Assembly (NCBI RefSeq): GCF_014203355.1
Contig: NZ_JACHIR010000004.1
Location: 1-64,000 of the forward strand
Origin: Kutzneria kofuensis
Lineage (GTDB): Bacteria > Actinomycetota > Actinomycetes > Mycobacteriales > Pseudonocardiaceae
Reading direction: 5' to 3'
DNA length: 64,000 nt
Shown here piece by piece: positions 1 through 15,640 of the stretch. The position numbers and the translations under genes are program-made. Each line of letters opens with the position of its first letter. Position 1 is the stretch's first letter. The notes beneath the pieces were generated by a model that saw only the letters and a list, made by a program, of their open reading frames with translations, made no database searches and had not been told where the DNA came from.

Positions 1-313
1 CGGGCTCCGTGCTGAGGTCGAGTACGGGCAGGTCGACGGGGCGGGGCGCGTCGACCTGGACCCGCACCTCGTCCTCGGCCGGCACGTACCGGGACCGCAG
101 CACGTCATGCCGCCGCACGACGGCCGTGAGTGCGTCGGCGAGGGCGGTCACGTCAAGGGGACCGACGATCGTGTAGCTCTGCTGAAGGGTGTGCGCCGCA
201 TTGCCGGGCACCAGTCCGTCGAGGAACCAGAACCGCTCCTGCGCGAACGAGGGCATGGTCTCGCGATACTGCGCACCGGCGGCTTCCGGCACAACCAGAT
301 CATCAGTCGCCAT
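1..313 (-). CDS. Nonribosomal peptide synthetase, N-terminal condensation domain (partial)
   Basis: The gene runs off the left edge, so only the first ~104 residues are visible. The frame from the ATG at 313 gives a typical condensation-domain start: the C1-like motif SFAQERFWFLDGL at residues ~22-34 and the C2-like motif RRHDVLRSRY at ~67-76. Condensation domains join the acyl or peptidyl group on an upstream carrier protein to the amino acid on the downstream one. Having C as the first domain means this protein receives a preformed acyl chain rather than loading its own starter. The DegT-type aminotransferase gene lies 78 bp upstream on the same strand, so the two are probably co-transcribed. 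The 78-bp gap shows no strong hairpin. Domains beyond the edge cannot be judged. Confidence 0.85.
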   Translation of the reverse strand, partial: MATDDLVVPEAAGAQYRETMPSFAQERFWFLDGLVPGNAAHTLQQSYTIVGPLDVTALADALTAVVRRHDVLRSRYVPAEDEVRVQVDAPRPVDLPVLDLSTEP

Positions 314-391
314 ATGTTGTACTCCATGCTCGAACACCCCTCCGCGTCTTGTCCCATGAAAAAGGGACAGGGCCCGGAATGACACCGACGG

Positions 392-1621
392 TCACGCCCT
401 GGCGCCGGCCAGCGCTTTGTCGAGGGCGGCGACGAGGCGCTCGAGGTGAATGTCGGTCAGCGCGGGGTGGCACGGCAGGTTGAGCTGACTTCCGAACCAC
501 AGCCGCTCCGCCGTCGGGCATTCGCCGAAATCATGTCCCCGGCTGCGCCATTCGGGCAGCAGGTGCAGCGGGAAATAACGCAGCCACATTTCGACGCCGA
601 GGTCCTCCAGCGACCGGATCAGCGCGTTGCGGTCTATTCCGCTGCCGGGCTCGACAAAACACGTGTACAGGTGCCGGCCGTGCACGACGTCGGGCGGGAC
701 CGCCTGGATCCTGATGTCGTCGCGGTCGCGCAGGTGGTCGTCCAGCACGCCGGCCACGTGGCGGCGGCGGGCGCTCAGCTCGGCCAGCCGGCCCAGCTGC
801 ACCAGGCCGACGGCGGCCGCCGGCTCCCCCATCGTGGCGTTGGTGCCCGGGTCGCGGACGGTCACGCACTCGTGGGTGTGCGCCAGCCCCGGGTAGAGCG
901 CCTTGGGCACCTCGTCGAACCGCGCGGTCGCGGCCCGGTACACGCCGTCGCAGTCGTTGCCGCGGATCCGAGCCACCCGCTCGGCCCAGTCGTCCCGGTC
1001 GAACGTGATCATCCCGCCCTCGCCGAGGGTGGTGATGGTCTTGGACGAGTGGAAGCTGAAGCAGCCGATGTCGGCCAGCGCGCCCGGCCGCCGGCCGCGG
1101 TAGGACGCGCCCAGCGCGTGCGCGCAGTCCTCGACCACCACGATGCCCCGGGGCCGGGTGATCGCCATGATCTCGTCCATGGGCGCGGGCAGCCCGCCGT
1201 AGTGCACCAGCATGACGGCCCGGGTGCGCGGGGTGACCAGCTCGGCCATCCGGGCCACGTCGATGTTCAGCGAGTTGGCGTCGATGTCACAGAACCGGAC
1301 GGTCACCGGCAGGCCGAGCAGGGCGTGCACGGTGGCCTGGAAGGTCTGCGGGGTGGCGATCACCTCGTCGCCCGGCTGCAGGTCCAGCAGCCGGACCGCC
1401 ATCTCCAGGGCGACCGTGCCGCTGGTCACCGTCAGCGCGTGCCGCGCCCCGACGTGGTCGGCGAACGCCCGCTCGAACCGGTCGCGCCACTGCCCCTGGG
1501 AGAGCCGGTCGCCCGACCGCAGCACCTCGCCGAGCACCGCCAGCTCGGGCTCGTCGAGCACGCCGCCGAGCATCGGGAACGGCACCTCGGCGGCGGCCGC
1601 CCGGCTCATTCCTGTCGACAT
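392..1621 (-). CDS. DegT/DnrJ/EryC1/StrS-family PLP aminotransferase
   Basis: A 409-residue fold-type I PLP enzyme, normal length for the family. It has the cofactor-binding TSGTVALEMA segment (~66-75), the conserved Asp in VEDCAHALGA (~D165) and the Schiff-base lysine in SFHSSKTITTLGEGG (~K194). The family usually aminates keto-sugars but also includes AHBA synthases and other amino-acid enzymes. Because a NikD-like oxidase and a mu-crystallin-like enzyme lie next door, I infer a possible lysine 2-aminotransferase role that supplies piperideine-2-carboxylate, as NikC does in nikkomycin biosynthesis. This rests on context, not on a diagnostic residue. The start could be the ATG at 1621 or at 1609; neither has a strong ribosome site. 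It is divergent from the nikD-like operon and upstream of the NRPS. Confidence 0.85.
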   Translation of the reverse strand: MSTGMSRAAAAEVPFPMLGGVLDEPELAVLGEVLRSGDRLSQGQWRDRFERAFADHVGARHALTVTSGTVALEMAVRLLDLQPGDEVIATPQTFQATVHALLGLPVTVRFCDIDANSLNIDVARMAELVTPRTRAVMLVHYGGLPAPMDEIMAITRPRGIVVVEDCAHALGASYRGRRPGALADIGCFSFHSSKTITTLGEGGMITFDRDDWAERVARIRGNDCDGVYRAATARFDEVPKALYPGLAHTHECVTVRDPGTNATMGEPAAAVGLVQLGRLAELSARRRHVAGVLDDHLRDRDDIRIQAVPPDVVHGRHLYTCFVEPGSGIDRNALIRSLEDLGVEMWLRYFPLHLLPEWRSRGHDFGECPTAERLWFGSQLNLPCHPALTDIHLERLVAALDKALAGARA

Positions 1622-2029
1622 TTCACGGCGAGTGGCGAGAGCATTCCGCCGGCGGGCGCCGTGAATTCACCCGGCGAGCCCGTCGGCAATCCGGCGGAAC
1701 AGGACCCCGCCGCCGACGACCACTGGTCACGGTCGACGGGATGTGACATTTCCAGGCGCACGATCTCCCCCGAAACATCTCGATTGATTTCGCCAGACGC
1801 GCGAATCCGCATATTCGCCGAAACCGTTCCTGGCGACGGTGCCGACCGGACGTTCGGCCACGCTACCAGCTGTGTGCCGAAAGGCAAGCAGCGCGGACTC
1901 GACACGGATCGCTCCTGGCGGCCCGTTGGTTTCCGTGGCATGCTGCTGGAATCATCGCCGAGGCGCCGATGTGCGGTGGCGACCGACCGCACGGGGGAAT
2001 CCGACGGGCCCGATAGCCGGGAGGGCGCG
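1622..2029. promoter_or_regulatory. Divergent control region with a palindrome
   Basis: A 408-bp gene-free region between the aminotransferase (minus) and the NikD-like gene (plus). It is less GC-rich around 1740-1830. An inverted repeat with arms GCGAAT (1801-1806) and ATTCGC (1813-1818) around a 6-bp spacer is a candidate operator for a regulator that is not in the window. I saw no convincing small gene. The ribosome site GGGAGG at 2019-2024 sits 5 bp ahead of the ATG at 2030. Promoter hexamers cannot be assigned with confidence. Confidence 0.4.
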
Positions 2030-3220
2030 ATGCTGGACGCTGAATTCTTCGACCTGACCGTGGTCGGCGGCGGCCCGGTGGGCCTGGCCGCCGCCGGGGC
2101 GGCCGCCGCGCGCGGGCTGTCGGTTCTGGTCGTGGAGCGGTTCGACTTCCACGGCGGGCACGGCAGCTCGGGCGGGGCCGAACGGCAGTGGCGGCTCCAG
2201 TACGCCGAGACCGATCTGTCCGCGCTGACGCTGCATGCCCGCACCGCTTGGCGCGACTTGGCGGCGCGCACCCGGCGCCGGGTGGTGCACGAGACCGGCA
2301 GCCTGTGGTTCGGCGACACCACGCAGAGCAGCTCGGAGGGTCAGATCGAGGCGGCCGTGGCCGTGCTGGACGAGCTGGAGATCGCCTACCAGCGGGTGGA
2401 CAACGACGAGCTGCGCACCCGCTACGGGTTCCATGACCTGCCCGCGGACTACCACGGCATCCACCAGCCGCAGGGCGGCGTGCTGGACGTCGCCGCGGCG
2501 CGCTGGGCGCTGCTGGACTCGGCCGCCGGCCTCGGATGTGCCTTGCACAGCGGCGAAACGGTGCTCGACATCGCGCCGGACGGCAACGGCGTCACCGTCC
2601 ACACCGACCGCGGCCGCTATCGCTGCGGGCACGTGGTGGTCACCGCGGGCGCGTGGACTCCCGCGGTGCTCGACCGGATCGGCGTGTCGGTCGACCTCAC
2701 GCTGTACGAGCTGACCCAGGCGCACTTCCGGCTGCGCACGGACCGGGACTACCCGACCTGGTTCGCCTTCCAGAACGCCACCGACACCGACAGCAACCTG
2801 TTCTACGGCTTCGGCCGCACCCCGTGGGCCGACGACGACCTGGTCCAGGTGTCGCCGCTGTTCGAGGCCGACCCGATCGCCGACCCGGCCGCCGCGCGCC
2901 GCGCTCCCCGTGAGCACGATCTGCGCCGCGTGACCGAATGGGTCCGCGACCACATGCCTGATCTGGAGCCACAACCGCTGCACGCGGGCACGTGCGTCGC
3001 CGCGCTGCCCACCGACCACGGCCGGCAGTTCTACCTCGGCTCCGCCGCCGGCCTGGTGCCCGACGGCGAGCGCGTGGTGGTCTGCGCCGGCGGCTGGGGC
3101 TTCAAGTTCGTGCCCGTGTTCGGCGAGGCGTGCGTGCAGCTGGCGCTGGACGGCCGCACCCGGTACGGGTTGGAGCGCAGCGGGCTCACCGCGACGTCGG
3201 TGACCGGCGCGACCGCATAG
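2030..3220 (+). CDS. NikD-like FAD oxidase (sarcosine-oxidase family), probable piperideine-2-carboxylate oxidase
   Basis: 396 residues from the ATG at 2030. The Rossmann FAD motif VVGGGPVGLA is at ~11-20, followed by an SGGAERQWRLQY block at ~47-58. From memory of the NikD sequence, the GSLWFGD block (~90-96), WFAFQ, NLFYGFG, LPTDHGRQFYLG and GGWGFKFVPVFG all align closely. The cysteine in GTCVAALPTD is residue 322 and the tryptophan in GGWGFKF is residue 356. NikD carries its covalent FAD on Cys321 and has a key Trp355. NikD oxidises piperideine-2-carboxylate by four electrons to picolinate. The gene starts a three-gene plus-strand operon (35-bp gap to the next gene). A pipecolate or N-methyl amino acid oxidase is the main alternative. 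Confidence 0.85.
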   Translation: MLDAEFFDLTVVGGGPVGLAAAGAAAARGLSVLVVERFDFHGGHGSSGGAERQWRLQYAETDLSALTLHARTAWRDLAARTRRRVVHETGSLWFGDTTQSSSEGQIEAAVAVLDELEIAYQRVDNDELRTRYGFHDLPADYHGIHQPQGGVLDVAAARWALLDSAAGLGCALHSGETVLDIAPDGNGVTVHTDRGRYRCGHVVVTAGAWTPAVLDRIGVSVDLTLYELTQAHFRLRTDRDYPTWFAFQNATDTDSNLFYGFGRTPWADDDLVQVSPLFEADPIADPAAARRAPREHDLRRVTEWVRDHMPDLEPQPLHAGTCVAALPTDHGRQFYLGSAAGLVPDGERVVVCAGGWGFKFVPVFGEACVQLALDGRTRYGLERSGLTATSVTGATA

Positions 3221-3255
3221 CAGAAACCACGTCCAGCGAGCGGGAGACAGCGACC

Positions 3256-4230
3256 GTGCAGATCAAGGTCATCAGCGGCAGCACCGTGCGGCGGTTGGTC
3301 ACCCTGGCCGACCTGGCCGGGCCGATGCGCGACGCGCTGGTCGGGTTCAGCGCCGGCACGGTGTACCAGCACCCCCGGGTGACCGCCGAGCCGAGCGACG
3401 GCGACTACGTGCTGATCATGCCGGCCGGCGGGGGCGGCAAGGTCGGCCTGAAGGTCCTCACCATGTTCGCCGCCAGCACCCAGCACGGCCTGCCCAGCGT
3501 CCAGGGCCTGGTGGTGCTGGTGGACGGCACGACCGGGCAGCCGCTGGCCCTCGTGGACGGCACGGTGATCACCGAGCTGCGCACGGCCGCGGTGTCGGCG
3601 CTGGCCACCGAACGGCTGGCGCGGGCGGACGCCCGGACGCTGGCCGTGATCGGCGCGGGTGTCCAGGCCACCGCGCATCTGGAGGCCTTGCAAGGCGTTC
3701 GCGAGTGGGACGACGTCCGGGTGCACAGCCGGACGCCCGAACGCGGCCAGCAGCTGGTGAAGCAGGCCGAGGCGTGGGGGCTGCCGGTGCGGTGGGCGCC
3801 GTCCGCCGCCGAGGCGGCCGACGGCGCGGACGTGATCTGCACCGCGACGTCCTCGTGCTCGCCGGTGATCCCGTCGGACGCGGTCGGGCCGGGCACGCAC
3901 ATCACCGCGGTGGGCGCTTTCGGGGCCACCTGCCGCGAGCTGCCGACCGAGGTCGTCGTGCGGGCGACGCTGTTCGCCGACAGCCACGCCTCGGTGCTGG
4001 CCGAGGCGGGCGACGTGCTGATCCCGATCGGTGAGGGCCGGCTGCCGGCCGACCCGCCGCTGACCGAGATCGGCCGGGTGCTCGCCGGCGACCATCCCGG
4101 CCGCACGGACGACGACGAGGTCACGGTGTTCAAGTCGCTGGGGCTGCCGGTGGAGGACGTGGCGGCGTGCACGCTCGTGTACGACCGCGCCCTGGCCGCG
4201 GGCGCCGGCCAGGACGTGGACTTCGACTGA
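3256..4230 (+). CDS. Ornithine cyclodeaminase / mu-crystallin family enzyme, probable ketimine reductase
   Basis: 324 residues from a GTG with GGGAGA at 3242-3247. It has the family lysine in VGLKVLTM (~K66), the arginine of ITELRTAAVSA, the dinucleotide motif VIGAGVQATAHL and an Asp in FADSHASVLAEAGD near the usual catalytic Asp. The family contains ornithine and lysine cyclodeaminases, alanine dehydrogenases and mu-crystallin-type ketimine reductases. The VGLKV and LALVDGTVITELRTAA segments look more like the ketimine-reductase side than like lysine cyclodeaminases such as PipA, but this is a judgement by eye. Beside the NikD-like enzyme it would give a second outlet for piperideine-2-carboxylate, namely reduction to L-pipecolate. 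It is 20 bp ahead of the P450. Confidence 0.8.
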   Translation: MQIKVISGSTVRRLVTLADLAGPMRDALVGFSAGTVYQHPRVTAEPSDGDYVLIMPAGGGGKVGLKVLTMFAASTQHGLPSVQGLVVLVDGTTGQPLALVDGTVITELRTAAVSALATERLARADARTLAVIGAGVQATAHLEALQGVREWDDVRVHSRTPERGQQLVKQAEAWGLPVRWAPSAAEAADGADVICTATSSCSPVIPSDAVGPGTHITAVGAFGATCRELPTEVVVRATLFADSHASVLAEAGDVLIPIGEGRLPADPPLTEIGRVLAGDHPGRTDDDEVTVFKSLGLPVEDVAACTLVYDRALAAGAGQDVDFD

Positions 4231-4250
4231 ACGGACGGATCGGCATCCCG

Positions 4251-5510
4251 ATGAGCGCGCCCAGCCAGCCGGCCGCGACCGGCGCGGAACTGTTCGCCCG
4301 GCTGATCGACCCGGCCCGCCGGCACGACCCGTACCCGGTGTACGCCGAGATCCGCCGGCGCGGTCCACTGTGGATAGAGCACATGCCGGCGGTCGCGGTG
4401 GGCTCGTACCACGACTGCGAAGCCCTGATGCGCGACCCACGGCTGAGCGCGGAGCGGTGGCGGTACGCCGGGGCGACGTCGAACCACGAGCGGCTGCCGA
4501 TCGACGCGCCGACGTCACTGTGGCAACCGTCCTTCCTCTCGCTGGACCCGCCGGACCACACCCGGCTGCGCCGGCTGGTGACCAAGGCCTTCACCGTGCA
4601 CACGGTGACCAGGCTCGAACCGGCCATCGCCGACCTGGTGGACCGGTTGGTCGACGAGGCCGCCGACCGCGACACGTTCGACGTCATCGCCGACCTGGCC
4701 TACCCGCTGCCGGTCACGGTGATCTGCCGGATGCTGGGCGTGCCCGCCGCCGACGAGCACCTGTTCCACCGGTGGTCCTCGCAGCTCGCCCGGTTCGTCG
4801 ACGGGCTCGCGCTGGCCGCCGCGGGCAGCGACGACAAGTTCGACTGGATGTCGGGCACCATCGAGATGCACCGGTACATCGAGGACCTGGTGGCACTGCG
4901 GCGCGTCGACCCCCGTGACGACCTGGTGTCGGACCTGATCGCCATCGAGGACGCCGGTGACGTGCTGACCGCCGACGAGCTGGTGTCGACGATCGTGCTG
5001 CTCCTGGTCACCGGGCACGAGACCACGATGAACCTCATCGGCAACTGCGTGCTCGCGCTGCTGCGGCACCCCGAGCACCTGGCGGCCGTGCGCGCCGACC
5101 CGACGCTGGTGCCGGCGGTCATCGAGGAGACCGTGCGCTACGACCCGCCGGTGCACCTGAGCGCCCGGGTCGCCAAGGAGGCCATGGACATCGGCGGGAC
5201 CGCGGTGCCCGAGGGTGGCCTGGTGTTCCTGCTTCTGGCGGCGGCGCACCGGGACCCCGCGATGTATCCCGACCCGGACCGGTTCGACCCGACCCGAGCG
5301 CAGCCCGGACACCTCGGTTTCGGCGTCGGCATCCACTACTGCGTCGGCGCCGCGCTGGCCAAGACCCAGACCAGGCTGGCGCTGACCAGCCTGCTCCGGC
5401 GGCTGGTCGACCCGGTGCTGGCCCAGGACCCGCCGCCCTACCGGGAACACGTGAACCTGCACGGACCGAGCGCCCTTCCCTTGGCCCACAAGGGGATCAG
5501 GCCTCGGTGA
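4251..5510 (+). CDS. Cytochrome P450
   Basis: 419 residues, typical of a soluble actinobacterial class I P450. The I-helix oxygen-activation motif is TGHETT (~254-259), the ExxR motif is ETVR (~293-296), and the heme loop FGVGIHYCVGAAL has the thiolate Cys at ~364. The ATG at 4251 was chosen because the conserved N-terminal segment (LIDPARRHDPYPVYAEI) follows it directly. Last gene of the NikD-like/OCD-like/P450 operon, so it probably hydroxylates a building block or the product; 3-hydroxylation of picolinate is one speculative option. Ferredoxin and reductase must come from elsewhere. Its last 14 bp overlap the end of the convergent LanB-like gene. Confidence 0.95.
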   Translation: MSAPSQPAATGAELFARLIDPARRHDPYPVYAEIRRRGPLWIEHMPAVAVGSYHDCEALMRDPRLSAERWRYAGATSNHERLPIDAPTSLWQPSFLSLDPPDHTRLRRLVTKAFTVHTVTRLEPAIADLVDRLVDEAADRDTFDVIADLAYPLPVTVICRMLGVPAADEHLFHRWSSQLARFVDGLALAAAGSDDKFDWMSGTIEMHRYIEDLVALRRVDPRDDLVSDLIAIEDAGDVLTADELVSTIVLLLVTGHETTMNLIGNCVLALLRHPEHLAAVRADPTLVPAVIEETVRYDPPVHLSARVAKEAMDIGGTAVPEGGLVFLLLAAAHRDPAMYPDPDRFDPTRAQPGHLGFGVGIHYCVGAALAKTQTRLALTSLLRRLVDPVLAQDPPPYREHVNLHGPSALPLAHKGIRPR

Positions 5511-7740
5511 CCACCCGGTCCGCGGCGGTGGCGCGGACCGCCACCATCCGCAGCTCGGCCGGGTACCGCCGGCCGGCGGGATCGCGCAGCCAGAGCTGGT
5601 CCGGTCCGGGCAGCATCTCGGTGACGGTGACCGGCAGGCCCTCGCGCGCGGCCGCCCGGACCAGGCGGGCCATGTCGTCCAGCAGCGCGGGGGCGGTGAA
5701 GTCCACGTACACCGGCTTGACCTCACGCGGGGTGTGCACGAACACGTGCCGCGGCATGCCGTGCCGGCCGGCCCACTCCCGCAGGCACCGGTAGGTGTGG
5801 TCCTGCGGACGTGACCGCGGCAGCGGCACGTCGGTCGCCGGGACATGCCAGCTCTCCCGGCACACCACCACCTCGTCGATCAGCACCCGCGGCGCCCACG
5901 CGCGGCGCGCTCGCAGCGTGAACATGTTGACGCACAAGGAGGTCAGGAACTCGCCGAAGAACTCCGCGACCGGGGCCCGCCACCCGTCGGTCACGCCGAC
6001 GAGCACGCCGTCGCGTTCCACCACCCGCACCGCGGTGGCCGGCACGGCGGCGACGCCGTGTTCGTGCCCGTGGTCCGCGCCGAACGACCAGTAGTGGAAT
6101 CCGCCCGGCGGGTCCAGCGCCGGCGGCGGGTAGGTGCGGGAGTTGTTGGCCACGCCGTCGTGCGGGTACAGCGGCACCACCCGACCGGCCGCGAAGTCCC
6201 GCGCCGTCGCGTCCACAAGGGACGGACGGTCGGCGCACTGCGTCGCGAACAGCCGGCTCTCCAAGGTGTTCAGCGCGACGTGCAACTCGCCGAGCACCCA
6301 GAGATGGCCGCCGTCGGGCTGCCGGGCCAGCATCAGGTCGGGGGTGTGGTGCCGGGCGGCGGCCCAGCACGGCGTCCGTTCCGGGAACAGGGCGTCGACG
6401 AGACCGCGCAGTCCCGCCGTGGTCAGGCGGACCGGCCCGGTCGCGGCGTCCGGCAGGATCTCCGCCCAGCGCAGCTGGAAGTCCTCGTGTACGGCGGCGA
6501 CGATGTCGTTGCCGGGAACCAGCACGTCGGTGACCGCGGCCTGGAGCTCGGCCAGTGTGACCACTTCGCGGCGCATCGCGTGCAACGCCTTGGCCATGTG
6601 CCTCTCGACCACGTCGCCGACCTCCGCGGCGACCCAGTCGGCGGCGCGCAGCAGCAGACCGAGCGGGCCGGCGAGCGCTGCCAGCAGCGGCTCGCCCAGC
6701 TCGACGTCCAGGTCCCGCCGGCAGTCCAGGTACACCGAGGTCCGGCCGAGGTCGTGACGGGAGATGGTCCGGGTGGCGGTGCCGCCCGCGGCCCGGACGG
6801 CTGTGGCCAGCTCCCCCATCGCCGCGTGCAGCTGCGCGGGGGCCGTGGCCGTCGCGGCCACCCTGGCCCGGGCGGCGTCCAACTCGTCCAACCGGACCAG
6901 GAGATCGCCGCGGACCCGGCCGTCCGGGATCTCGGCCACCTGCTCGCGCAGGCGCCGCTCGGGGTGTTCGTCGAACGGGATCAGGAACCCGACCTGGAGC
7001 ACGCCGGCCGCGCACAGCTCCTCGGCGGCCTCGGTGAGCGTGGACGCGGCGAGACCGCTCGTCGCGGCGGCGTCGGCGACCAGCATCGAGAGTGTCTGCT
7101 TCGGCGCGAGCGCGGCGAGCAGCGCGGCCGCCGCCCCGTCGAGGTTCCGGGGCGGCCGGCGCGGCCGCAGCAGCCGCCCATAGTCCACAGTGGACGCCGG
7201 ATGCAGTCGGACCGGCAGGTGCGGCCGGACTTCCGGCCGCTCACCCCACGACCGGGCCAGTTCGACGATCGCCCACACCTCGAAGGAGACCGTGCTGTCC
7301 CGCAGGCCGAGCGTGCCCCGCCAGGACAGCGGGGCCGCCGCGTCGGTGAACGTTCCCCACGCGACCGGCCCGAAGAAGCCGATGGACTCGTTCTTCGTCG
7401 CGTAGCGCTGGGCGTACCGGGCGATCACCCGTTCCCGTTCGTTGCGCCGGGAAAGGGGTGGGCGTTCGCCGCTTCGGGCCAGTGCCGCCAGCCGGTGCGC
7501 CCAGGTGTCGACCACCGACGGGTTCTGCCAGGTCAGCGCGGCCATGAACGTGTCGTCCGCCAACGCGGACCACACCGCCTCGGTGGTCGCCGCCCGCGCC
7601 GCCGGCTCGTCGTCGGGCCGGTCGACGGCGAACGTGTCGACGAACTCCACCGGCAGGCCGGTGCTGCGCACGGCGTACCGCCGCCACAGTGACCACCGGC
7701 CGTCCAGCGGCACCAGATGACTGTCCACTTCAGACTGCAC
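5497..7740 (-). CDS. LanB-like protein: lantibiotic dehydratase glutamylation domain only
   Basis: 747 residues matching the tRNA-dependent N-terminal domain of LanB dehydratases (Lant_dehydr_N). Typical segments include NESIGFFGPVAWG (~116-128), the core PDLMLARQPDG...LGELHVALNTLESRLFATQ, and the C-terminal LWLRDPAGRRYPAELR. In LanB this domain transfers glutamate from Glu-tRNA to Ser/Thr side chains. Stand-alone relatives (PEARLs) add amino acids from aminoacyl-tRNA to peptide C-termini. There is no SpaB_C elimination domain, and I found no LanC, LanM or precursor peptide nearby. The GTG start at 7740 lies inside the last codons of the PKS gene (stop at 7730), so the two are translationally coupled and probably act on the same product. 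Whether it acylates a small molecule or a carrier-bound chain is unknown. Confidence 0.85.
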   Translation of the reverse strand: MQSEVDSHLVPLDGRWSLWRRYAVRSTGLPVEFVDTFAVDRPDDEPAARAATTEAVWSALADDTFMAALTWQNPSVVDTWAHRLAALARSGERPPLSRRNERERVIARYAQRYATKNESIGFFGPVAWGTFTDAAAPLSWRGTLGLRDSTVSFEVWAIVELARSWGERPEVRPHLPVRLHPASTVDYGRLLRPRRPPRNLDGAAAALLAALAPKQTLSMLVADAAATSGLAASTLTEAAEELCAAGVLQVGFLIPFDEHPERRLREQVAEIPDGRVRGDLLVRLDELDAARARVAATATAPAQLHAAMGELATAVRAAGGTATRTISRHDLGRTSVYLDCRRDLDVELGEPLLAALAGPLGLLLRAADWVAAEVGDVVERHMAKALHAMRREVVTLAELQAAVTDVLVPGNDIVAAVHEDFQLRWAEILPDAATGPVRLTTAGLRGLVDALFPERTPCWAAARHHTPDLMLARQPDGGHLWVLGELHVALNTLESRLFATQCADRPSLVDATARDFAAGRVVPLYPHDGVANNSRTYPPPALDPPGGFHYWSFGADHGHEHGVAAVPATAVRVVERDGVLVGVTDGWRAPVAEFFGEFLTSLCVNMFTLRARRAWAPRVLIDEVVVCRESWHVPATDVPLPRSRPQDHTYRCLREWAGRHGMPRHVFVHTPREVKPVYVDFTAPALLDDMARLVRAAAREGLPVTVTEMLPGPDQLWLRDPAGRRYPAELRMVAVRATAADRVVTEA

Positions 7741-10700
7741 GGGCGTCGCGCACCAGGGCGGCCAGCGCGTCGACGGTCGGGTGGTCGAAGACCGCGCCGA
7801 TGCCGAACTCGATCTTGAACACGTCCCGGATGCGGCCCATCAGCTGCACCGCGCTCATCGAGTCGCCGCCGAGGTCGAAGAAGTCGCCGCCGGCGTCGAA
7901 CGACGCCACGCCGAGCACCTCGGCCCACAGCTCGCGTAGCCGATTCTCGACCGACTCCCCGTCGGGCGCCGGCACCGCCGCCACGGGCGCGGGCACGACC
8001 GGGGCGGCCGACGGCTTCGCGGCCGCCGCCAGCACCTGCGCCGGCGATGCCACCTCGGCCGCGCCGGCGTCGACGCGGGCCAGCGGCACCGGCGTGTCGT
8101 TCTCGAACGGCCGGACGAGCACATGTGCCGGCGTCCGGGCAGACAGCAGGTCCAGCAGGAGCCGGACGCCCTGCTCCGGGGCCAGGCCGCGGCCGGTGCC
8201 CGGCACGGGGGCGACCCGAGCCGGTGGCGCCTCCGGGGCGGTCGCCGGCGTCCGCGTGGCGAAGGAATGCCGGTCGGCCCGGCGCATGGTGAAGCCCTCG
8301 ATCTCGCCGATCACCGTGCCGTCCGGTCCGATCAGGTCGATGTCGCCGACGATCGTGCGGTCGGTGCCCTCCCGGCGGTGGATCCGGCTGTGCATGACGC
8401 CGGGCAGCGGCGCGTGCACCGTGAACCGGCGGTACATGAACGGCAGGTGCAGCCCGTCCTGGTCGGGGTCGCGCATGATCGAAGTAGCCAGGTCGAGCAG
8501 CGCGGGGTGCAGCGGGTGCACGGCCAGATCCGGCCGGAACGGCTCCGGCAGCGACAGGCTGACCAGCTTGGCCGACCCGGCCGCCCAGACCCCGGTCATG
8601 CTGTCCCAGCGCGGGCCGAGGTTGAACATGCGGGTGCTGGACATCACCACGTTCGGGATCTCCTGCTGGTCGAGCGCGGCGCGGACCTCGTCCACCGCGA
8701 CCGTGCGGCCCGACCCGGCCGCCCCGGCCGGCGCCGAGACGAATCCGCTGGTGTGGTCCTGCCACGGCTCGTCCGAGCCAGCCGCGCGGGAGGCGACGGT
8801 GAACCGGCGCCGGTCCCCGTCCTCGACGAACCGGACCCGGACCTCCTGCTCACGGCGCACCGCGAGCGGCTGGCCGAGCGTCACGTCCTCGAACACGACC
8901 GTGCCGTCCGGCCGGAGGTCGAACACCTCGCGGAAGGCGCGGATGACGAGGTCGAGCTGGCCGGTGCCGGGCAGCACCGGCCGGCCGTCCACGCGGTGCT
9001 CGTCCAGCGCCCAGCAGCGGTCCGGAGCCAGCGTGGTGAGGTGATCGCGGGTGCCGGCCGGCGGCTCGTCACCGGACGGGCCCACCAGCGCCTTCGCCAT
9101 GCCGACGGTGCGCCAGGCCGGCCAGCCGATGCTCAGCACGCGCTCGCCGCCCCGGCCCCACCGGCTGGCGGCGTACGCGTCGAGGAACGCGTTGGCCGCC
9201 GCGTAGTCGCCGTTGCCGACCATGCCGGCCAGCGCGGACCGGCTGGAGAAGGAGACGAGGAAGTCCAGCGGGGCCCGGCCGGCGAACGCCTCGGCCAGCG
9301 CCAGCACGCCCTGCACCTTCGGCCGGCAGACCCGCTGCACGTCGGCCCGGTCGCGGACGGCCAGCATGCCGCCGCCGGGCACGCCGGCCAGGTGCAGCAC
9401 GCCGTTGACCGGACCGAAGTGGGCGGTCGTGATGTCGAGCATGCGGGCCAGCGCCCGTGCGTCGGCGATGTCGCACGCGTGCACCCGCACCTGCGCGCCC
9501 AGCGCCTCCATCTCCGCGATCGCCGCCGCCGTGCCGTCCTCGTCGGACGGCAGGCCGGACCGCCCGGCCAGCACCAGGCGGGGCCGCAGCCCGGTGCCCG
9601 CCAGGCCCTTGGCGACCGCCACGCCCAGCCCGCCCAGGCCACCGGTGATCAGGTACACCCCGCCGCGGCGCAGCGAGGTCCCGTCGGGTCGGGGCTGCCA
9701 GGGCAGTTCGCGCGGCACCCAGCGCCGCCCGGCCCGCAGCGCGACGACGACCTCGTCGGGCTCGGCGCCGAGTTCGTCGACCAGGTCCTCCTCGCCGACC
9801 GGCGCGATGTCGAGCAGCCGGCAGGCCACGCCGGGCATCTCCGCGGCGAGCGTGCGCAGGTGCGCCGGCAGGACCGCCTTCGCCGGATGTGCGCCCTCAC
9901 CGCCGGAGACATCCACCGCACCGTTCGTCACGACGAGCACGCCGGGCAGCCGGCCGTCGGTGTCCGGCGCCGCGCCGGCCGCGTTGACCAGTGCCTGCAA
10001 CGAGTGGAACGCCAAGTCCAGTTGGGCGGTCGCGTTGTCGACGCCGACCGGCTCCCACTCGCCCAGCGCCCAGCCGTGCACCAGCAGTCGGGGCGAGCGG
10101 CCGGTCGCGGCCAGCGCGGCAACGACGGCCGCCAGATCCGCCTGCTCGCCCGGGCGGACGTGGAACTCGGTGTCACCGGCCACGAAGCCGCTGCCCGGCC
10201 GTACCCGGACGACCTGGTAGCCGCGTCGCTGCAGGGCCAGGACCAGGGGCAACGCCGTCGCCTGGTCCTCGGGCACCAGGGCGAGCGCGCACTGGCCCGT
10301 GGCCGGATCGACCGGCCGGCCCGCCCGCGCCCGTTCCGTCCAGGTGACGGTCGCATACGGCGACGCCTCCGCCGGCGTGCCGGTGGCCACCGGGACCGTA
10401 TCGTCCGATGTGGACGGTTCGGACTCGGTCGGCGGCTGGTACGGGGCGGCCGGTCCGGTCTTGGGGTCGATCCAGTACCGGCTGCGCTGGTACGGGTATC
10501 CCGGGACGGGCACCCGCCGCAGCGGCTCGTCCGGCCGCAGCGCCGCCCAATCCGGCTGCTGGCCCAGCTCCCACAACGCCGCGAGGGCGTCGAGGAACGA
10601 GCGTTCGTCGTCACGCACCGAGCGGTCGCCGCGCGGCAGCAACGCCCGCACCGTCGAGTCGCCCTGCCGCACCGCATCGTGCTTGCGCACCACACCCGTG

Positions 10701-13075
10701 AGCACCTGGTTCGGCCCGACCTCCAGCAGGACGTGCATGCCGCTGGCCACCGCCGAGCCGACCGCCTCGTCGAACCGCACCGGCTCGACCAGCTGGCGCG
10801 CCCAGAACTCGGGGTCGGTCGCCTCCGGCGCGGTCAGTTCCCGTCCGGTCGCCGCGGAGTACAGCGTGATCGCCGGCTCGTTCAGGGTCACCCCGTCAAA
10901 ACCGGCGACGAACGGCGCCACGGCGCCGCGCATGGCCTCGCTGTGGAAGGCGTGCGAGGTGGGCACGACGGTGACCGTCAGGCCGGCCGCCCTCAGCGCG
11001 TCCACTGCCGGCGTCGGGTCGGCGGGGCCGGCGAGCACCAACTGCTGGGGACCGTTCACCACCGCGACGGTGAATCCCTCGGGCAGCAGCGGGGTGACGG
11101 TGGCCTCGTCGGCCCGGACCGCGATCATGGCGCCGGCCGGCTGGTCCTGCATGAGCTTGCCGCGCAACGCGGTCAGCCGGAGCGCGTCCTCCACGCCGAT
11201 CACGCCCGCGACGGTGGCAGCGACCAGCTCGCCGACGCTGTGGCCGAGCACGGCCCGCGGCCGGATACCCGACTCGATGAGCGTCCGCGCGAGCGAGTAC
11301 TCCACGGCGAAGAGCAACGGCTGTGCGTACGCGGTGGGGCGCAACGCTTCGTCGTCGCCTTCCAGCCACAACTGCGCGAGCCGGGGGCCGTCGTCCAAAG
11401 CGGCCAGGCAGCGGTCCATCTCTGCGGTGAACACGGCGTTCTGCCGGTAGAGCCCGGCGGCCATCCGCGCGTGCTGGGAACCCTGTCCGGGGAACATGAA
11501 CACTACGTCACGGGGCAGCGGCGCCGTCTCGGGCGACCGCGCCAGCCGCAGTGCCTCGGCCGCCTCGGCCCGGCTGGCCGCCACCACCGCGGCCCGCACC
11601 GGATGGGCGGTCCGTCCCTGCTGCAGCGTCGCCACGGCGTCGGCGAACAGGTCGTCCGGCGCGTCGGCGAGGAAGTCCGCGAGCCTGGTCCGGCTCTCCT
11701 CGGCGGCCGCGGCGTTGCGCGCCGACCACACGACGATCCTCGGCCGGCCGCGGTCCGGCGTGCGCATCCGCGCCGGTCCCTCGCCGATCACCAGGTGCGC
11801 GTTCGCGCCGCCGACGCCGAACGAGCTGATCCCCGCGTACCGGGGCTTGTCCGGGTCGCGCGGCCACGCCCGCAGCTCACTGTTGACGTAGAACGGGGTC
11901 TTGTCCAACTCCAGCCGCGGATTGGGCTCGGTGAAGTTGATGCTCGGCGGCAGCTCCTCGGCGTCCAGCGCCATCGCCAGCTTGATCAGCCCGGCCACGC
12001 CGGAGGTGGGCACGGTGTGCCCGATGTTGCCCTTGACCGAGCCGATGCCGATCGAGCCGGGGGCCAGCTCACTGTCCGACAGCGACCGGTACGCCCGGTT
12101 CAGCGCCGTGACCTCGATCGGGTCGCCGACCGCGGTCGCCGTGCCGTGCGCCTCCACGTACGAGATGTCCGCGGGGGTCAGCCCGGCGACGCTCATCGCC
12201 TGGACGATCGCCGCCGACTGGCCGGTGACGCTCGGCGCGCTGAAGCTCATCTTGTCGCGGCCGTCGTCGTTCAGCGCGGTCCCGTGGATCACCGCGCGGA
12301 TGTGGTCGCCGTCGGCCACCGCGTCCGACAACCGTTTGAGGACCACCATCCCGGCGCCGTTGGTGAAGATGGTGCCGTTGGCCGCCGCGTCGAACGGCCG
12401 GCAGTGCCCGTCCCGCGACCGCACGCTGCCCGGTCCCCAGCGGTACCCGTGACCGTAGGGCAGCTCGACGTTCGCGGCACCGGCGAGTGCCATGTCGCAC
12501 TCCCCCATCACCAGCGACTGGCACGCCAGGTGCACCGCCACCAGCGAGCTGGAGCAGGCGGTCAGCACGGTCAGCGCCGGGCCGTGCAGGTCGAGGTTGT
12601 ACGAGGTGTAGGTGGTGATGTAGTCGGGGTTGTTGAACACCACGTTCGTCGCGTCGTGCTGCTGCAGGCGCCCGTTGATGTACAGGTCGGTGTACCGGGT
12701 CAGGCCGGTCGCCCCGAACACGCCCACGTCCCGGGTCATCGTGGTCGGGTCCAGCCCCGCGTCCTCGAGCGCGGCGTGGCTGACCTCCAGCGTCAGCTTC
12801 AGCTGCGGGTCGCTGAACCGCGCCTCGCGGGCCGTCATCCCGAAGAAGTCCGCGTCGAAGTCCCGCACGTGCGGGACCAGGCCCGCGGCCCGCACGTAGT
12901 ACTCGTCGGCCACTTCCGCCGGCGTCGCGCCCTCGGCGAGCAGCTCCTGCTCGGACAGCTGGGTGATGGACTCGGTGCCCGCTCGGAGGTTGCGCCAGTA
13001 CTCCCGGGCGTCCCGCGCGCCGGGCAACCGGGCGCCGACGCCGATGATCGCGATCGCCTCGAGGGAATCGTCCAC
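7730..13075 (-). CDS. Type I polyketide synthase, one module: KS-AT-KR-DH-ACP
   Basis: 1781 residues from the GTG at 13075 (VDDSLEAIAIIG); the frame stays open upstream to 13270 but only the GTG abuts the KS start. KS (~1-430) has Cys174 in TACSSS, EAHGTATAVGDP and KGNIGH. AT (~525-830) has GQGSQ, the nucleophile GHSVG (~S613) and HAFH (~708-711), the signature for malonyl-CoA. KR has TGGLGGLG (~1144-1151), Tyr ~1291 and Asn ~1295 and lacks the LDD motif of B-type KRs. A DH-like domain follows with HRVDGRPVLPG (His ~1360) and HPALLD (Asp ~1528). The ACP has GGDSM (Ser ~1739). DH after KR reverses the usual order. There is no thioesterase and no docking helix that I recognise. It is coupled to the LanB-like gene. 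Confidence 0.93.
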   Translation of the reverse strand: MDDSLEAIAIIGVGARLPGARDAREYWRNLRAGTESITQLSEQELLAEGATPAEVADEYYVRAAGLVPHVRDFDADFFGMTAREARFSDPQLKLTLEVSHAALEDAGLDPTTMTRDVGVFGATGLTRYTDLYINGRLQQHDATNVVFNNPDYITTYTSYNLDLHGPALTVLTACSSSLVAVHLACQSLVMGECDMALAGAANVELPYGHGYRWGPGSVRSRDGHCRPFDAAANGTIFTNGAGMVVLKRLSDAVADGDHIRAVIHGTALNDDGRDKMSFSAPSVTGQSAAIVQAMSVAGLTPADISYVEAHGTATAVGDPIEVTALNRAYRSLSDSELAPGSIGIGSVKGNIGHTVPTSGVAGLIKLAMALDAEELPPSINFTEPNPRLELDKTPFYVNSELRAWPRDPDKPRYAGISSFGVGGANAHLVIGEGPARMRTPDRGRPRIVVWSARNAAAAEESRTRLADFLADAPDDLFADAVATLQQGRTAHPVRAAVVAASRAEAAEALRLARSPETAPLPRDVVFMFPGQGSQHARMAAGLYRQNAVFTAEMDRCLAALDDGPRLAQLWLEGDDEALRPTAYAQPLLFAVEYSLARTLIESGIRPRAVLGHSVGELVAATVAGVIGVEDALRLTALRGKLMQDQPAGAMIAVRADEATVTPLLPEGFTVAVVNGPQQLVLAGPADPTPAVDALRAAGLTVTVVPTSHAFHSEAMRGAVAPFVAGFDGVTLNEPAITLYSAATGRELTAPEATDPEFWARQLVEPVRFDEAVGSAVASGMHVLLEVGPNQVLTGVVRKHDAVRQGDSTVRALLPRGDRSVRDDERSFLDALAALWELGQQPDWAALRPDEPLRRVPVPGYPYQRSRYWIDPKTGPAAPYQPPTESEPSTSDDTVPVATGTPAEASPYATVTWTERARAGRPVDPATGQCALALVPEDQATALPLVLALQRRGYQVVRVRPGSGFVAGDTEFHVRPGEQADLAAVVAALAATGRSPRLLVHGWALGEWEPVGVDNATAQLDLAFHSLQALVNAAGAAPDTDGRLPGVLVVTNGAVDVSGGEGAHPAKAVLPAHLRTLAAEMPGVACRLLDIAPVGEEDLVDELGAEPDEVVVALRAGRRWVPRELPWQPRPDGTSLRRGGVYLITGGLGGLGVAVAKGLAGTGLRPRLVLAGRSGLPSDEDGTAAAIAEMEALGAQVRVHACDIADARALARMLDITTAHFGPVNGVLHLAGVPGGGMLAVRDRADVQRVCRPKVQGVLALAEAFAGRAPLDFLVSFSSRSALAGMVGNGDYAAANAFLDAYAASRWGRGGERVLSIGWPAWRTVGMAKALVGPSGDEPPAGTRDHLTTLAPDRCWALDEHRVDGRPVLPGTGQLDLVIRAFREVFDLRPDGTVVFEDVTLGQPLAVRREQEVRVRFVEDGDRRRFTVASRAAGSDEPWQDHTSGFVSAPAGAAGSGRTVAVDEVRAALDQQEIPNVVMSSTRMFNLGPRWDSMTGVWAAGSAKLVSLSLPEPFRPDLAVHPLHPALLDLATSIMRDPDQDGLHLPFMYRRFTVHAPLPGVMHSRIHRREGTDRTIVGDIDLIGPDGTVIGEIEGFTMRRADRHSFATRTPATAPEAPPARVAPVPGTGRGLAPEQGVRLLLDLLSARTPAHVLVRPFENDTPVPLARVDAGAAEVASPAQVLAAAAKPSAAPVVPAPVAAVPAPDGESVENRLRELWAEVLGVASFDAGGDFFDLGGDSMSAVQLMGRIRDVFKIEFGIGAVFDHPTVDALAALVRDARAV

Positions 13076-13309
13076 AGCCAAGCCCCATTCCCCATCGTCC
13101 TCATGCGACAGCGGGGTGATCCGGCCGTGCGGGCGACGAACCGCGGCCGCCGAGGTCGACGCCGTCCGTTCCCGCGCGACGGCGCCGCACCCGTACGGAC
13201 CGGACACCACTACCCAGTGCCGCATCCCGTAGGTCTCGAACCCCGACCCTATACAAGCCCCTCGCAGCAAAGGGAAAACGCGCTGTCCCCAAAAAAAATG
13301 ACAGCGCCG

Positions 13310-13621
13310 GCTTCGTACCCGCCTCGGCGAGGGGCGCGAGCAGGCGGTCGTAACCCGCTCCGAACTCCTCCACGGGGATCACCTGCCCTTCGGGTCCAGC
13401 GTGTGCCAGCCCATGTCGTCGACCCCGACGAGGATCGACACCACGTCCGGGCCCCGGAAACCCCAGGCCCGCCCGGCGACCTCGGCGGCGACGCGGGTCT
13501 TGCCGGCCCCCGCCGGTCCCGTGACCAACACGAGCCCACCCCGGCCGGCGCGGGCGCGATCCAGTGCGGCGCCGAGCTCGGTGAGCACGGCACTACGGCC
13601 GGTGAACGGAAGCGCCTCCAC
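13310..13621 (-). pseudogene. Gene debris: AAA-ATPase regulator N-terminus joined to an SGNH-hydrolase fragment
   Basis: From the ATG at 13621 about 50 residues look like the start of a LuxR/LAL-type or AfsR-type ATPase regulator: FTGRSAVLTELGAAL, then Walker A GPAGAGKTR. Around 13460 the reading changes to a segment resembling block III of SGNH/GDSL hydrolases (PDVVSILVGVDDMGWHTLDP). Near 13383 this stops, but it resumes in another frame as QVIPVEEFGAGYDRLLAPL, which matches the same hydrolase family. So two unrelated truncated genes appear joined, with a frameshift. A run of eight A's near 13291 follows. None of it can make a working protein. It lies between the PKS and the GH15 gene. Confidence 0.6.
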
Positions 13622-13711
13622 CGTCGATCCTCTCGCCGCCGTCGAGCGTAGGCGCGATCCGCCGCCGCGGCACCGTGGCCGCGCCGGTTTCGAGTGGGCG
13701 GACGAGCGCGT

Positions 13712-15640
13712 TCAGGTTTTCGGGTTCACGACAACCCCCGCGGTCTCTTTCCGCGCCGGTAAGGCTGACGGATCGTCCGCCACGGCGGTCGGGCGCGTCG
13801 ATGCCGCAGGTGGGTGGAGGTCCAACTGCCGGTCGAGAGTGATGGCGGCGTCGATGAGGGCGAGGTGGGTGAACGCCTGGGGGAAATTGCCGATCTGTTC
13901 GCCGGTGAGGGCGATCTCCTCCGAGTACAGGCCGAGGTGGTTCGCGTAGGTGAGCATCTTCTCGAAAACGACGCGGGCCTTGTCGAGCCGGCCGGCGCGC
14001 GCGAGGGAGTCGACGTAGGCGAAGGTGCACAGGGAGAACGTGCCCTCCGAGCCGCGAAGCCCGTCCGGTGAGGCCGCGGGGTCGTACCGGTACACCAGAC
14101 TGTCGGTGACGAGCTCGCGGTCCATCGCGTCCAACGTGGACAGCCACATCGGGTCGGTCGGGGCGATGAACCCGACCGCGGTCATCCGCAGCAGCGACGC
14201 GTCGAGCACATCGGTCTCGTAGTGCTGGCGGAACGCCTGCCGGCTGGCACTCCAGCCTCGATCCATGACCTGGTCGTAGATCGCGTCGCGCTGCTCGCGC
14301 CAGCGGTCCACCGGGGCCGGTCGTCCGTGTTCGGTGGCGAGCCGGATGCCACGATCGAGTGCCACCCAGTTCATGAGCCGGCCGTAGGTGAAGTCCTGGC
14401 GTCCGCCCCGGGTCTCCCAGATGCCTTCCTCGGCCTGATCCCAGTTCTCGCTGACCCAGTTCAGGATGTCGGACACCACCCGCCATCCGTGGTGGCCGGT
14501 GAGGATGCCGTGCCGGTCACCGACCCAGATGCTGTCGAGCGCCTCGCCGTAGATGTCGAGCTGCAACTGGTCGGCCGCGTCATTGCCGATGCGGACCGGC
14601 GCCGAGCCACGGTAACCCTCCCAGTCGGCAAGGATTTCCTCGGTGAGATCCGAGGAACCGTCGACGCGGTACATGACCTTCAACGGCCGGCCGGCACCGG
14701 CCTGCTCGTCGACACGGTGCGCCAGCCAGCGTCCCAGGGCGGCGGCTTCCTCGGAGAAACCGAGCCCGAGCAGCGAGTAGACCGAGAACGACGCATCCCG
14801 GACCCAGGTGTAGCGATAGTCCCAGTTCCGTTCACCGCCGATCTGTTCCGGCAGTCCCGCCGTGGGCGCGGCCACGAACGCGCCGCTCGGCGCATAGGTC
14901 ATCAGCTTCAGCGTGATCGCGGAGCGGTTCAGCGCCTCGCGCCACCTGCCCCGGTATGTCGACCGGCCGATCCACGACTTCCAGAAGTCCACCGTCTCCT
15001 CGAGCAGCCGCCACGCCTCGGCCACCGGGATCTGACGGATCGGGCCGGCGACCCCGGTCTCCAGCACCAGACCCCGCGTCAGCCCGGCTCGCAGGGTGGC
15101 CTCCCCGTGCACGTTGCCGTGGTCGTCCACACGCGCCCGTGCGAGGTACTCGTCCTCGGGATCCCTGATCAAGTTCGCCGTCATCGACGTTCCGGTCCTG
15201 CCCTCGAAGACCGCGCCGTCCGGCATCAGCCGCGTCTCGTGCGGCTCGCGTCCGTAATCGAACCGCGGCGCGATGTCGAAGGAGAAGGTCATCTCCCCAC
15301 GGACACAGCGCAGCAACCGAACCAGCTGGTGGCGAGCCGTGGCCACCGTGCCGGTGACCGGCATGAAGTCGATGACCTCGCCCACCCCGGCCTCGGTCAT
15401 GAAGCGGGTGACCAGAACCGCGGTGTCCGGGTAGTAGAGCTGCTTGCTGGTGAACACCTTGACGGTGGGACGGATCCGGCAGTGCCCGCCGCGACGCTGG
15501 TCGAGCAGGGCCCCGAAGGTGCTGGGCGAGTCGAACCGAGGGGCGCAGAACCAGTCGACCGTGCCATCGGTGGCCACCAGCGCGGAGGTCTGCAGGTCGC
15601 CGATGAGGCCGTGGTCGGCGATCAGCGGGTAGTCGGACAT
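13712..15640 (-). CDS. Glycoside hydrolase family 15 (trehalase/glucoamylase-like)
   Basis: 642 residues, cytoplasmic (no signal peptide). The ATG at 15640 is chosen because AAAGGA lies ahead of it and because MSDYPLIADHGLIGDLQTSALV is the normal start of this family. The N-terminal beta-sandwich is followed by an (alpha/alpha)6 barrel. Signature segments are NWDYRYTWVRDASFSVY, EEGIWETRGG with a likely catalytic Glu, and GSEGTFSLCTFAYVD near the C-terminus. Actinobacterial and mycobacterial members of this group are usually trehalases that give glucose from trehalose; glucoamylase or isomaltose activity is the alternative. It is followed (minus-strand order) only by debris, and the membrane-protein gene lies 166 bp upstream, so it may be monocistronic. 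Confidence 0.9.
   Translation of the reverse strand: MSDYPLIADHGLIGDLQTSALVATDGTVDWFCAPRFDSPSTFGALLDQRRGGHCRIRPTVKVFTSKQLYYPDTAVLVTRFMTEAGVGEVIDFMPVTGTVATARHQLVRLLRCVRGEMTFSFDIAPRFDYGREPHETRLMPDGAVFEGRTGTSMTANLIRDPEDEYLARARVDDHGNVHGEATLRAGLTRGLVLETGVAGPIRQIPVAEAWRLLEETVDFWKSWIGRSTYRGRWREALNRSAITLKLMTYAPSGAFVAAPTAGLPEQIGGERNWDYRYTWVRDASFSVYSLLGLGFSEEAAALGRWLAHRVDEQAGAGRPLKVMYRVDGSSDLTEEILADWEGYRGSAPVRIGNDAADQLQLDIYGEALDSIWVGDRHGILTGHHGWRVVSDILNWVSENWDQAEEGIWETRGGRQDFTYGRLMNWVALDRGIRLATEHGRPAPVDRWREQRDAIYDQVMDRGWSASRQAFRQHYETDVLDASLLRMTAVGFIAPTDPMWLSTLDAMDRELVTDSLVYRYDPAASPDGLRGSEGTFSLCTFAYVDSLARAGRLDKARVVFEKMLTYANHLGLYSEEIALTGEQIGNFPQAFTHLALIDAAITLDRQLDLHPPAASTRPTAVADDPSALPARKETAGVVVNPKT

Follow-up and report, generated by a model that had tools for sequence, protein, structure and literature searches.

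A putative PEARL-like amide-forming enzyme encoded beside a polyketide synthase module in a truncated hybrid NRPS-PKS cluster

Threonine addition in one NRPS-PKS pathway requires a LanB-like protein, SnaE, encoded in its cluster (Yu and van der Donk 2024, PMC11212132), and the name "threopeptin" appears in that article and in its preprint. The same study counted about two thousand NRPS/PKS clusters that carry LanB-like genes and reports such clusters to have no precursor genes (PMC11212132). SnaE resembles P0001, the protein examined here, in being a stand-alone LanB-like protein without an elimination domain, in belonging to an NRPS-PKS cluster without a precursor peptide, and in the amide formation, dependent on ATP and aminoacyl-tRNA, that has been proposed for it (PMC11212132). 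The sna cluster differs in having a ureido-forming condensation domain, marked by the motif EHHxxHDG, that leaves a carboxylate, and a PKS of the order KS-AT-T (PMC11212132).

The PEARLs of RiPP pathways (TglB, BhaB7 and AmmB2) also consist of a glutamylation-like domain alone. In the portions of the PEARL papers available they act on ribosomal scaffold peptides, whereas for P0001 no such peptide was found in the first 13,900 bases analysed. The class I dehydratases and split LanBs NisB, MibB and TbtB share with P0001 the fold and the Pfam family PF04738; unlike them, P0001 has PEARL-type residues and lies on a contig with neither a PF14028 partner nor LanC. On the PKS side, the available text on the barnesin A NRPS-PKS describes KS-AT-KR-DH PKS modules behind NRPS modules as making vinylogous amino acids (PMC13096860). 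A comparable order, with an adenylation domain ending shortly before a KR/DH-bearing PKS, is seen in 6 of 15 close relatives of our locus (among the matches listed), but BrnF of the barnesin A system ends, by that text, in a thioesterase (PMC13096860), whereas the PKS studied here, P0002, is instead followed by the PEARL-like P0001 and has no NRPS gene adjoining it in the window.

The initial annotation of this DNA proposed an undescribed system and an unusual use of the LanB fold. That proposal has been overtaken, as the same general use was shown for SnaE in 2024 (PMC11212132). In the literature outside most subscription journals we recognised no description of a PKS-coupled clade like that of P0001. 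The kind of enzyme is therefore already described, and the novelty appears to lie in a separate clade, coupled to a PKS, whose visible flanks lack the chain-reversal signature.

The locus and the PKS-LanB gene pair

The window, meaning the whole stretch of 64,000 nucleotides that was analysed, corresponds to bases 1-64000 of contig C4 (228,532 bp) in a genome of 10.4 Mb on 5 contigs. The features of its left end are:

2..385, minus strand: NRPS condensation domain, N-terminal part, cut at the contig end (PF00668 positions 8-88 of 456)
392..1621, minus strand: DegT/DnrJ/EryC1 aminotransferase family protein (PF01041, E 3.8e-92)
2030..3220, plus strand: FAD-dependent amine/amino-acid oxidase family protein (PF01266, E 1.2e-38; start read from the frame)
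2992..4230, plus strand: ornithine-cyclodeaminase/mu-crystallin family protein (PF02423, E 7.3e-79; domain from about 3280)
4167..5510, plus strand: cytochrome P450 (Pfam; heme motif FGVGIHYCVG; likely start ATG 4251)
5497..7740, minus strand: P0001, PEARL-like (LanB glutamylation-domain-like) protein of 747 aa (start GTG 7740, possibly GTG 7728)
7730..7740, minus strand: overlap of the P0002 stop and the P0001 start, read from the sequence
7730..13270, minus strand: P0002, polyketide synthase, KS-AT-KR-DH-ACP (Pfam and catalytic motifs)

Base 1 of the window is base 1 of contig C4 and falls inside an NRPS condensation-domain gene. The cluster is thus truncated, and we read the locus as part of a hybrid NRPS-PKS cluster. 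The remainder of the cut condensation domain was found at no other contig end (52 matches checked), and a circular contig was rejected, the two ends having no 15-30-base words in common and different genes being cut at either end. The FAD oxidase, ornithine-cyclodeaminase-family and P450 genes, all on the plus strand, are convergent to the P0002-P0001 pair, and the P450 gene, which converges directly on that of P0001, overlaps its 3' end by 14 bases. For the ornithine-cyclodeaminase-family protein, all NCBIfam matches remained under their cut-offs. Immediately past the right edge of the window, a large NRPS region (G000:C4:65612-78999, minus strand) contains several condensation domains.

The start codon of P0001 (GTG 7740-7738) and the stop codon of P0002 (TGA 7732-7730) place the two open reading frames in an 11-base overlap, which confirms the earlier observation that the PKS stop lies within the first codons of a 747-residue LanB-like frame. 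The accompanying description of the two as "translationally fused" does not hold: the frames are separate, with a stop codon between them, and a fused PKS-LanB protein is ruled out. P0002 and P0001 would accordingly be two proteins, translationally coupled at most, and coupled translation would keep them in step. As a further in-frame GTG is found at 7728, one base past the P0002 stop, the true start of P0001 may not overlap P0002 at all.

In P0002 the domains are placed at 11780-13060 (KS), 10586-11503 (AT), 9110-9661 (KR), 8264-9037 (DH) and 7751-7942 (ACP). The conserved KS begins at about 13060, and the true start of the protein is probably close to 13075. Its catalytic motifs are present, including HxxxGxxxxP in the DH and HAFH in the AT, the latter presumably indicating malonyl. 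No thioesterase domain was found in P0002 by Pfam, and the window showed neither an NRPS loading module adjoining P0002 nor a thioesterase match. Upstream of P0002, a small frame at 13379-13621 (minus strand) is similar to the N-terminal part of an ATP-binding regulator and carries a Walker-type GPAGAGKT; it has matches in L087, L109 and L138 and appears to be a remnant.

A class I lanthipeptide gene was ruled out, since PF14028, the elimination domain, and the LanC-like family have 7 and 5 matches in the genome, respectively, and none on the whole 228,532 bp of contig C4. The missing LanC of the initial annotation is thereby extended from its surroundings to the entire contig, and no elimination partner was found on the rest of that contig either. 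Outside the main genes, window positions 1-13900 contain 12 small ORFs (22-130 codons), two of which match related loci at E<=0.01, one being antisense to the start of P0002 and the other a regulator fragment. No conserved scaffold-like small ORF was detected in this interval, in line with the earlier remark that no precursor is visible, the cluster being cut at window base 1.

Fold and active-site residues of P0001

With Pfam, P0001 yields a single family, PF04738 (best stretch residues 62-365, E 7.5e-23); PF14028 is not matched, so that the earlier reading of a glutamylation-type domain kept without the elimination domain stands. No NCBIfam family was found for it at E<=0.1, and a search of solved structures with its sequence returned no relative. 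An AlphaFold2 model built from a 78-row alignment reached a mean pLDDT of 93.5 and a pTM of 0.93, and when it was compared with the PDB by Foldseek all 11 matches at E<=0.001 were LanB-type (TbtB, MibB, MadB, NisB and GodF, the last of which we take to be a LanB-type enzyme). The strong matches of the model, all to LanB-type structures, NisB and TbtB included, support the assignment of P0001 to this fold. Rank 12 was human glutathione synthetase (E 0.013), a match too weak to count alone; glutathione synthetase belongs to the ATP-grasp family, which the available part of one paper proposes as the ancestor of PEARLs (PMC11117183).

For the PEARL BhaB7, the available portions of the papers name 15 residues for ATP/Mg or tRNA, which we mapped onto P0001 by motif and spacing; 12 of them are the identical letter. 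These are Arg34 (R25 in P0001), Tyr205 (Y109), Arg208 (R112), Arg429 (R333), Asp558 (D468), Glu575 (E485), His577 (H487), Arg715 (R628), Phe755 (F667), Lys763 (K675), Glu813 (E729) and Arg815 (R731). Several spacings are the same in both proteins, namely Asp-Glu 17, Glu-His 2, Glu-Arg 2, Tyr-Arg 3 and Phe-Lys 8. The ATP-site set in P0001 would comprise D468, E485, H487, R628, F667, K675, E729 and R731, as placed by motif and spacing rather than by alignment to BhaB7. Those named for the tRNA 3'-CCA end, Tyr205, Arg208 and Arg429, correspond to Y109, R112 and R333 with identical spacings of 3 and 221. Three named residues are unmatched at the same spacing: Tyr426 falls on D330, Gln201 on V105 and Arg197 on E101, with R102 adjacent. 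The tRNA-related residues named for BhaB7 are retained in part, Y109, R112 and R333 being kept and Gln201 and Arg197 having no match at the same spacing.

Across the 78 rows, R112, R333, D468, E485, H487, R628, E729 and R731 are invariant. The column of K675 holds Lys in 64 rows and Arg in 14, that of R25 holds Arg in 64, the other 14 having a gap there, and the Tyr426-equivalent column, where P0001 has D330, is Tyr in 47 of the 78.

PEARLs differ from the split LanB TbtB, according to the part of the text available, in the equivalents of an Asp and an Arg (TglB 542 and 803) (PMC11117183). Alanine exchanges are reported to have separated the half-reactions of TglB. The control consisted of two true LanBs from this genome, each carrying PF04738 and PF14028. 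Aligned with MAFFT, neither has the P0001 letter at D468, E485, H487, R628, K675 or E729, and the R731 column is Arg in both; differing letters at E485, H487 and R628 were likewise obtained from profile alignments (hhalign probability 93.5 and 94.7). TbtB is reported, in the same available text, to keep an Arg and a Glu of the PEARL ATP site (PMC11117183), and as these differ in both control LanBs, the C-terminal columns of the control are unsure. The comparison with the two genomic LanBs is therefore a partial control.

Relatives of P0001 and their neighbourhoods

A scan of a species-level genome collection with P0001 alone found no relative. The same collection scanned with alignment A1 yielded at least 422 among its candidate stretches, from which 79 distinct loci were kept; a further alignment, A2, consisted of 46 hand-chosen rows. 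Two loci, L093 (with a domain map nearly equal to that of L092) and L121 (at a contig end), were excluded from alignment A3 as well as from the tree and from the neighbourhood counts, for which n = 77. All the counts that follow hold among the matches listed. A PKS or NRPS domain occurs in the fetched flanks of 70 of the 77 related loci. Fifteen loci (L064-L078) form a set of close relatives at 41-49% identity to P0001, the others having no more than 37%, and an NRPS domain is present in the flanks of each of the 15.

In 10 of the 15 close relatives vs 1 of the 62 others, the LanB-like gene directly follows the end of a KR/DH-bearing PKS (Fisher p 2.8e-8, kinship ignored), so the adjacency of PKS and LanB-like genes is more than chance. 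The two ORFs overlap at 7 of the 10 junctions (L064, L072, L073, L074, L076, L077 and L078), the gaps at the remaining ones being 1 base (L065, from Dactylosporangium roseum), 6 bases (L071, from Micromonospora chokoriensis) and 11 bases (L067). The close relatives without a PKS directly upstream are L066, L068, L069, L070 and L075; in L070 such a PKS ends about 1.1 kb upstream, and in L075, a locus cut by a contig end, an ACP lies just upstream. By Pfam, the upstream PKSs of L065, L078, L133 and the genome's own paralogue have the domain order of P0002. In 6 of the 15 close loci the KS of the upstream PKS is preceded, at a distance of no more than 900 bp, by the end of an adenylation domain, and a thioesterase match is present in the flanks of 9. 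Further NRPS/PKS genes follow the LanB-like gene in several of them, and a simple release role would therefore not be general.

The same genome encodes a second PKS-LanB pair (C1:8326837-8332182 and 8332184-8334397), 41-44% identical and situated behind NRPS genes. About 18-25 kb upstream of this paralogous pair lie two synthetase-type genes:

G000:C1:8306695-8308383 (L023:4396-6084), plus strand: class I lysyl-tRNA-synthetase-like gene, the sole match in the genome over the PF01921 cut-off
G000:C1:8309582-8311471 (L023:7283-9172), minus strand: glutamyl-tRNA-reductase-like part joined to a class II aminoacyl-tRNA-synthetase-like core

With the first of these two genes, the paralogous cluster might, speculatively, charge a tRNA for its own use. 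When 298 genomes of the order were searched with the reductase-synthetase fusion, the genome that encodes it was the 1 genome with a match at E<=1e-60. A general association of aminoacyl-tRNA synthetases with the family was not upheld: with both synthetase-type genes as seeds, the paralogous locus gave matches and 0 of the 79 others did.

A quick maximum-likelihood tree was built from 79 rows, with SH-aLRT support only and the deepest forks open; in it P0001, its paralogue and the 15 close loci form a clade of 17 rows (SH-aLRT 99). A PKS stands directly upstream in 12 of the 17, P0001 and the paralogue having been labelled by hand. Compared with sna as described, this clade is set apart by the upstream KS-AT-KR-DH-ACP PKS of these 12 rows and by the want of EHHxxHDG in the visible flanks; these were scanned for the motif over about 10 kb, and 0 of the 15 close loci have it, the window's own condensation domain being cut before the motif. 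None was found in 50 kb around the paralogue either. Among all 79 loci, 4 carry the motif in their flanks (L081, L099, L125 and L127), three of which belong to a separate 15-row clade (support 100) and the fourth to another clade. Near the LanB-like gene of L099 there is an acyl-CoA-dehydrogenase match, a gene type also present in the sna (threopeptin) cluster of Stackebrandtia nassauensis (PMC11212132).

Other gene arrangements were observed in the family. FemAB-like genes, from a family of which some members use aminoacyl-tRNA, are found in the flanks of four close relatives (L068, L069, L072 and L074). In a different clade, two LanB-like genes flank an adenylation-domain gene (L089, L094, L112, L118, L123, L132, L138, L139, G006 and G022), some of these loci also having an ornithine-carbamoyltransferase-like gene, of which there is a match in 8 of the 77 loci. 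In a third clade (L086, L096, L100, L107, L110, L116, L136 and L137), a KS and a TE lie directly upstream of the LanB-like gene, after which come A and C domains and then a PKS with KS-AT-KR, to which DH and ACP are added where the flank is long enough.

Proposed function and its alternatives

We propose, with a probability of about 0.7, that P0001 is a PEARL-like amide-forming enzyme of the truncated NRPS-PKS cluster, acting with ATP and aminoacyl-tRNA on a carboxylate of the product; the retention of ATP-type residues makes the PEARL route the best reading. According to this proposal, which draws on sequence, a predicted model and analogy, the NRPS and the KS-AT-KR-DH-ACP module would, to judge from their domains, produce an alpha,beta-unsaturated chain. 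P0001 would then phosphorylate a free carboxylate with ATP, as its retained residues and the precedent of PEARLs and SnaE suggest, the carboxylate lying either at the end that the PKS releases or at the other end of the chain, the latter as for SnaE. In turn, the amine of the aminoacyl-tRNA would attack the acyl phosphate and the tRNA would be hydrolysed off, resulting in one extra, amide-linked amino acid. Since adenylation domains precede the KS in 6 and thioesterase matches accompany 9 of the 15 close loci (among the matches listed), it is plausible that the acceptor in relatives is an enoyl acid that a thioesterase releases before an amino acid is added to it as a cap.

The initial annotation had an amino acid pass from tRNA to an assembly-line intermediate or product. 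Its general outline, built on the LanB fold, the tie to the PKS and the absence from the contig of an elimination partner, is supported, but an ACP-bound chain is the less likely acceptor, as most PEARL-type ATP-site residues are kept and point to a free carboxylate. Were the aminoacyl-tRNA amine to attack the ACP-bound PKS thioester directly, P0001 would release or extend the chain without ATP. Such a transfer would suit both the PKS gene ending in an ACP that directly adjoins, and often overlaps, the P0001-type gene, and the lack of a TE in P0002 itself. We nevertheless consider it unlikely, because most PEARL-type ATP-site residues are kept, which argues for ATP activation of a free carboxylate and for which a thioester route would have no need. 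In addition, the thioesterases near close loci could free the acid, the homologues in L066, L068 and L069 have no PKS directly upstream, and other NRPS/PKS genes come after the LanB-like gene in several loci. P0001 could also aminoacylate a hydroxyl, such as that of the KR product, in the manner of a LanB ester transfer, the amino acid serving as a protecting group or an elimination aid. The fold of P0001 is indeed common to glutamylation domains, but contig C4 carries no elimination domain, P0002 has its own DH with HxxxGxxxxP and the PEARL-type Asp and Arg are kept, all of which render this improbable.

Least probable of all would be an ordinary PEARL working on a ribosomal scaffold peptide whose gene lies in the lost portion of the cluster, with the PKS adjacency incidental. 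The first-described PEARLs do act on scaffold peptides, by the available portions of their papers, and window base 1 is where the cluster breaks off. Yet the visible part holds no conserved scaffold-like small ORF, homologues have NRPS/PKS genes in 70 of 77 loci (among the matches listed), and such clusters are reported without precursor genes (PMC11212132). A chain reversal like that of SnaE is not favoured at this locus either, there being no EHHxxHDG condensation domain near the P0001 clade in about 10 kb flanks of 15 loci (among the matches listed).

With the amide-forming reading in mind, one may tentatively go further, at well below even odds, and speculate that the P0001 clade is a separate class: a tRNA-fed ligase that is the fixed partner of a KS-AT-KR-DH-ACP PKS and adds an amino acid to its alpha,beta-unsaturated carboxylate, so that the forward end of the assembly line would be prolonged from the translation pool with no reversal of the chain as in SnaE. 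Where relatives have an NRPS module ahead of the PKS, the carboxylate would, in this proposal, be that of a vinylogous amino acid.

If true, this would be a second setting in modular biosynthesis for PEARL-like enzymes, in which a compact PKS-ligase pair is present in several actinomycete families. The pair would help to find electrophilic (enoyl) peptides that carry an amino acid unexplained by NRPS adenylation domains. As one residue would come from a tRNA, prediction of the product from domain order would fail in PKS-ligase clusters.
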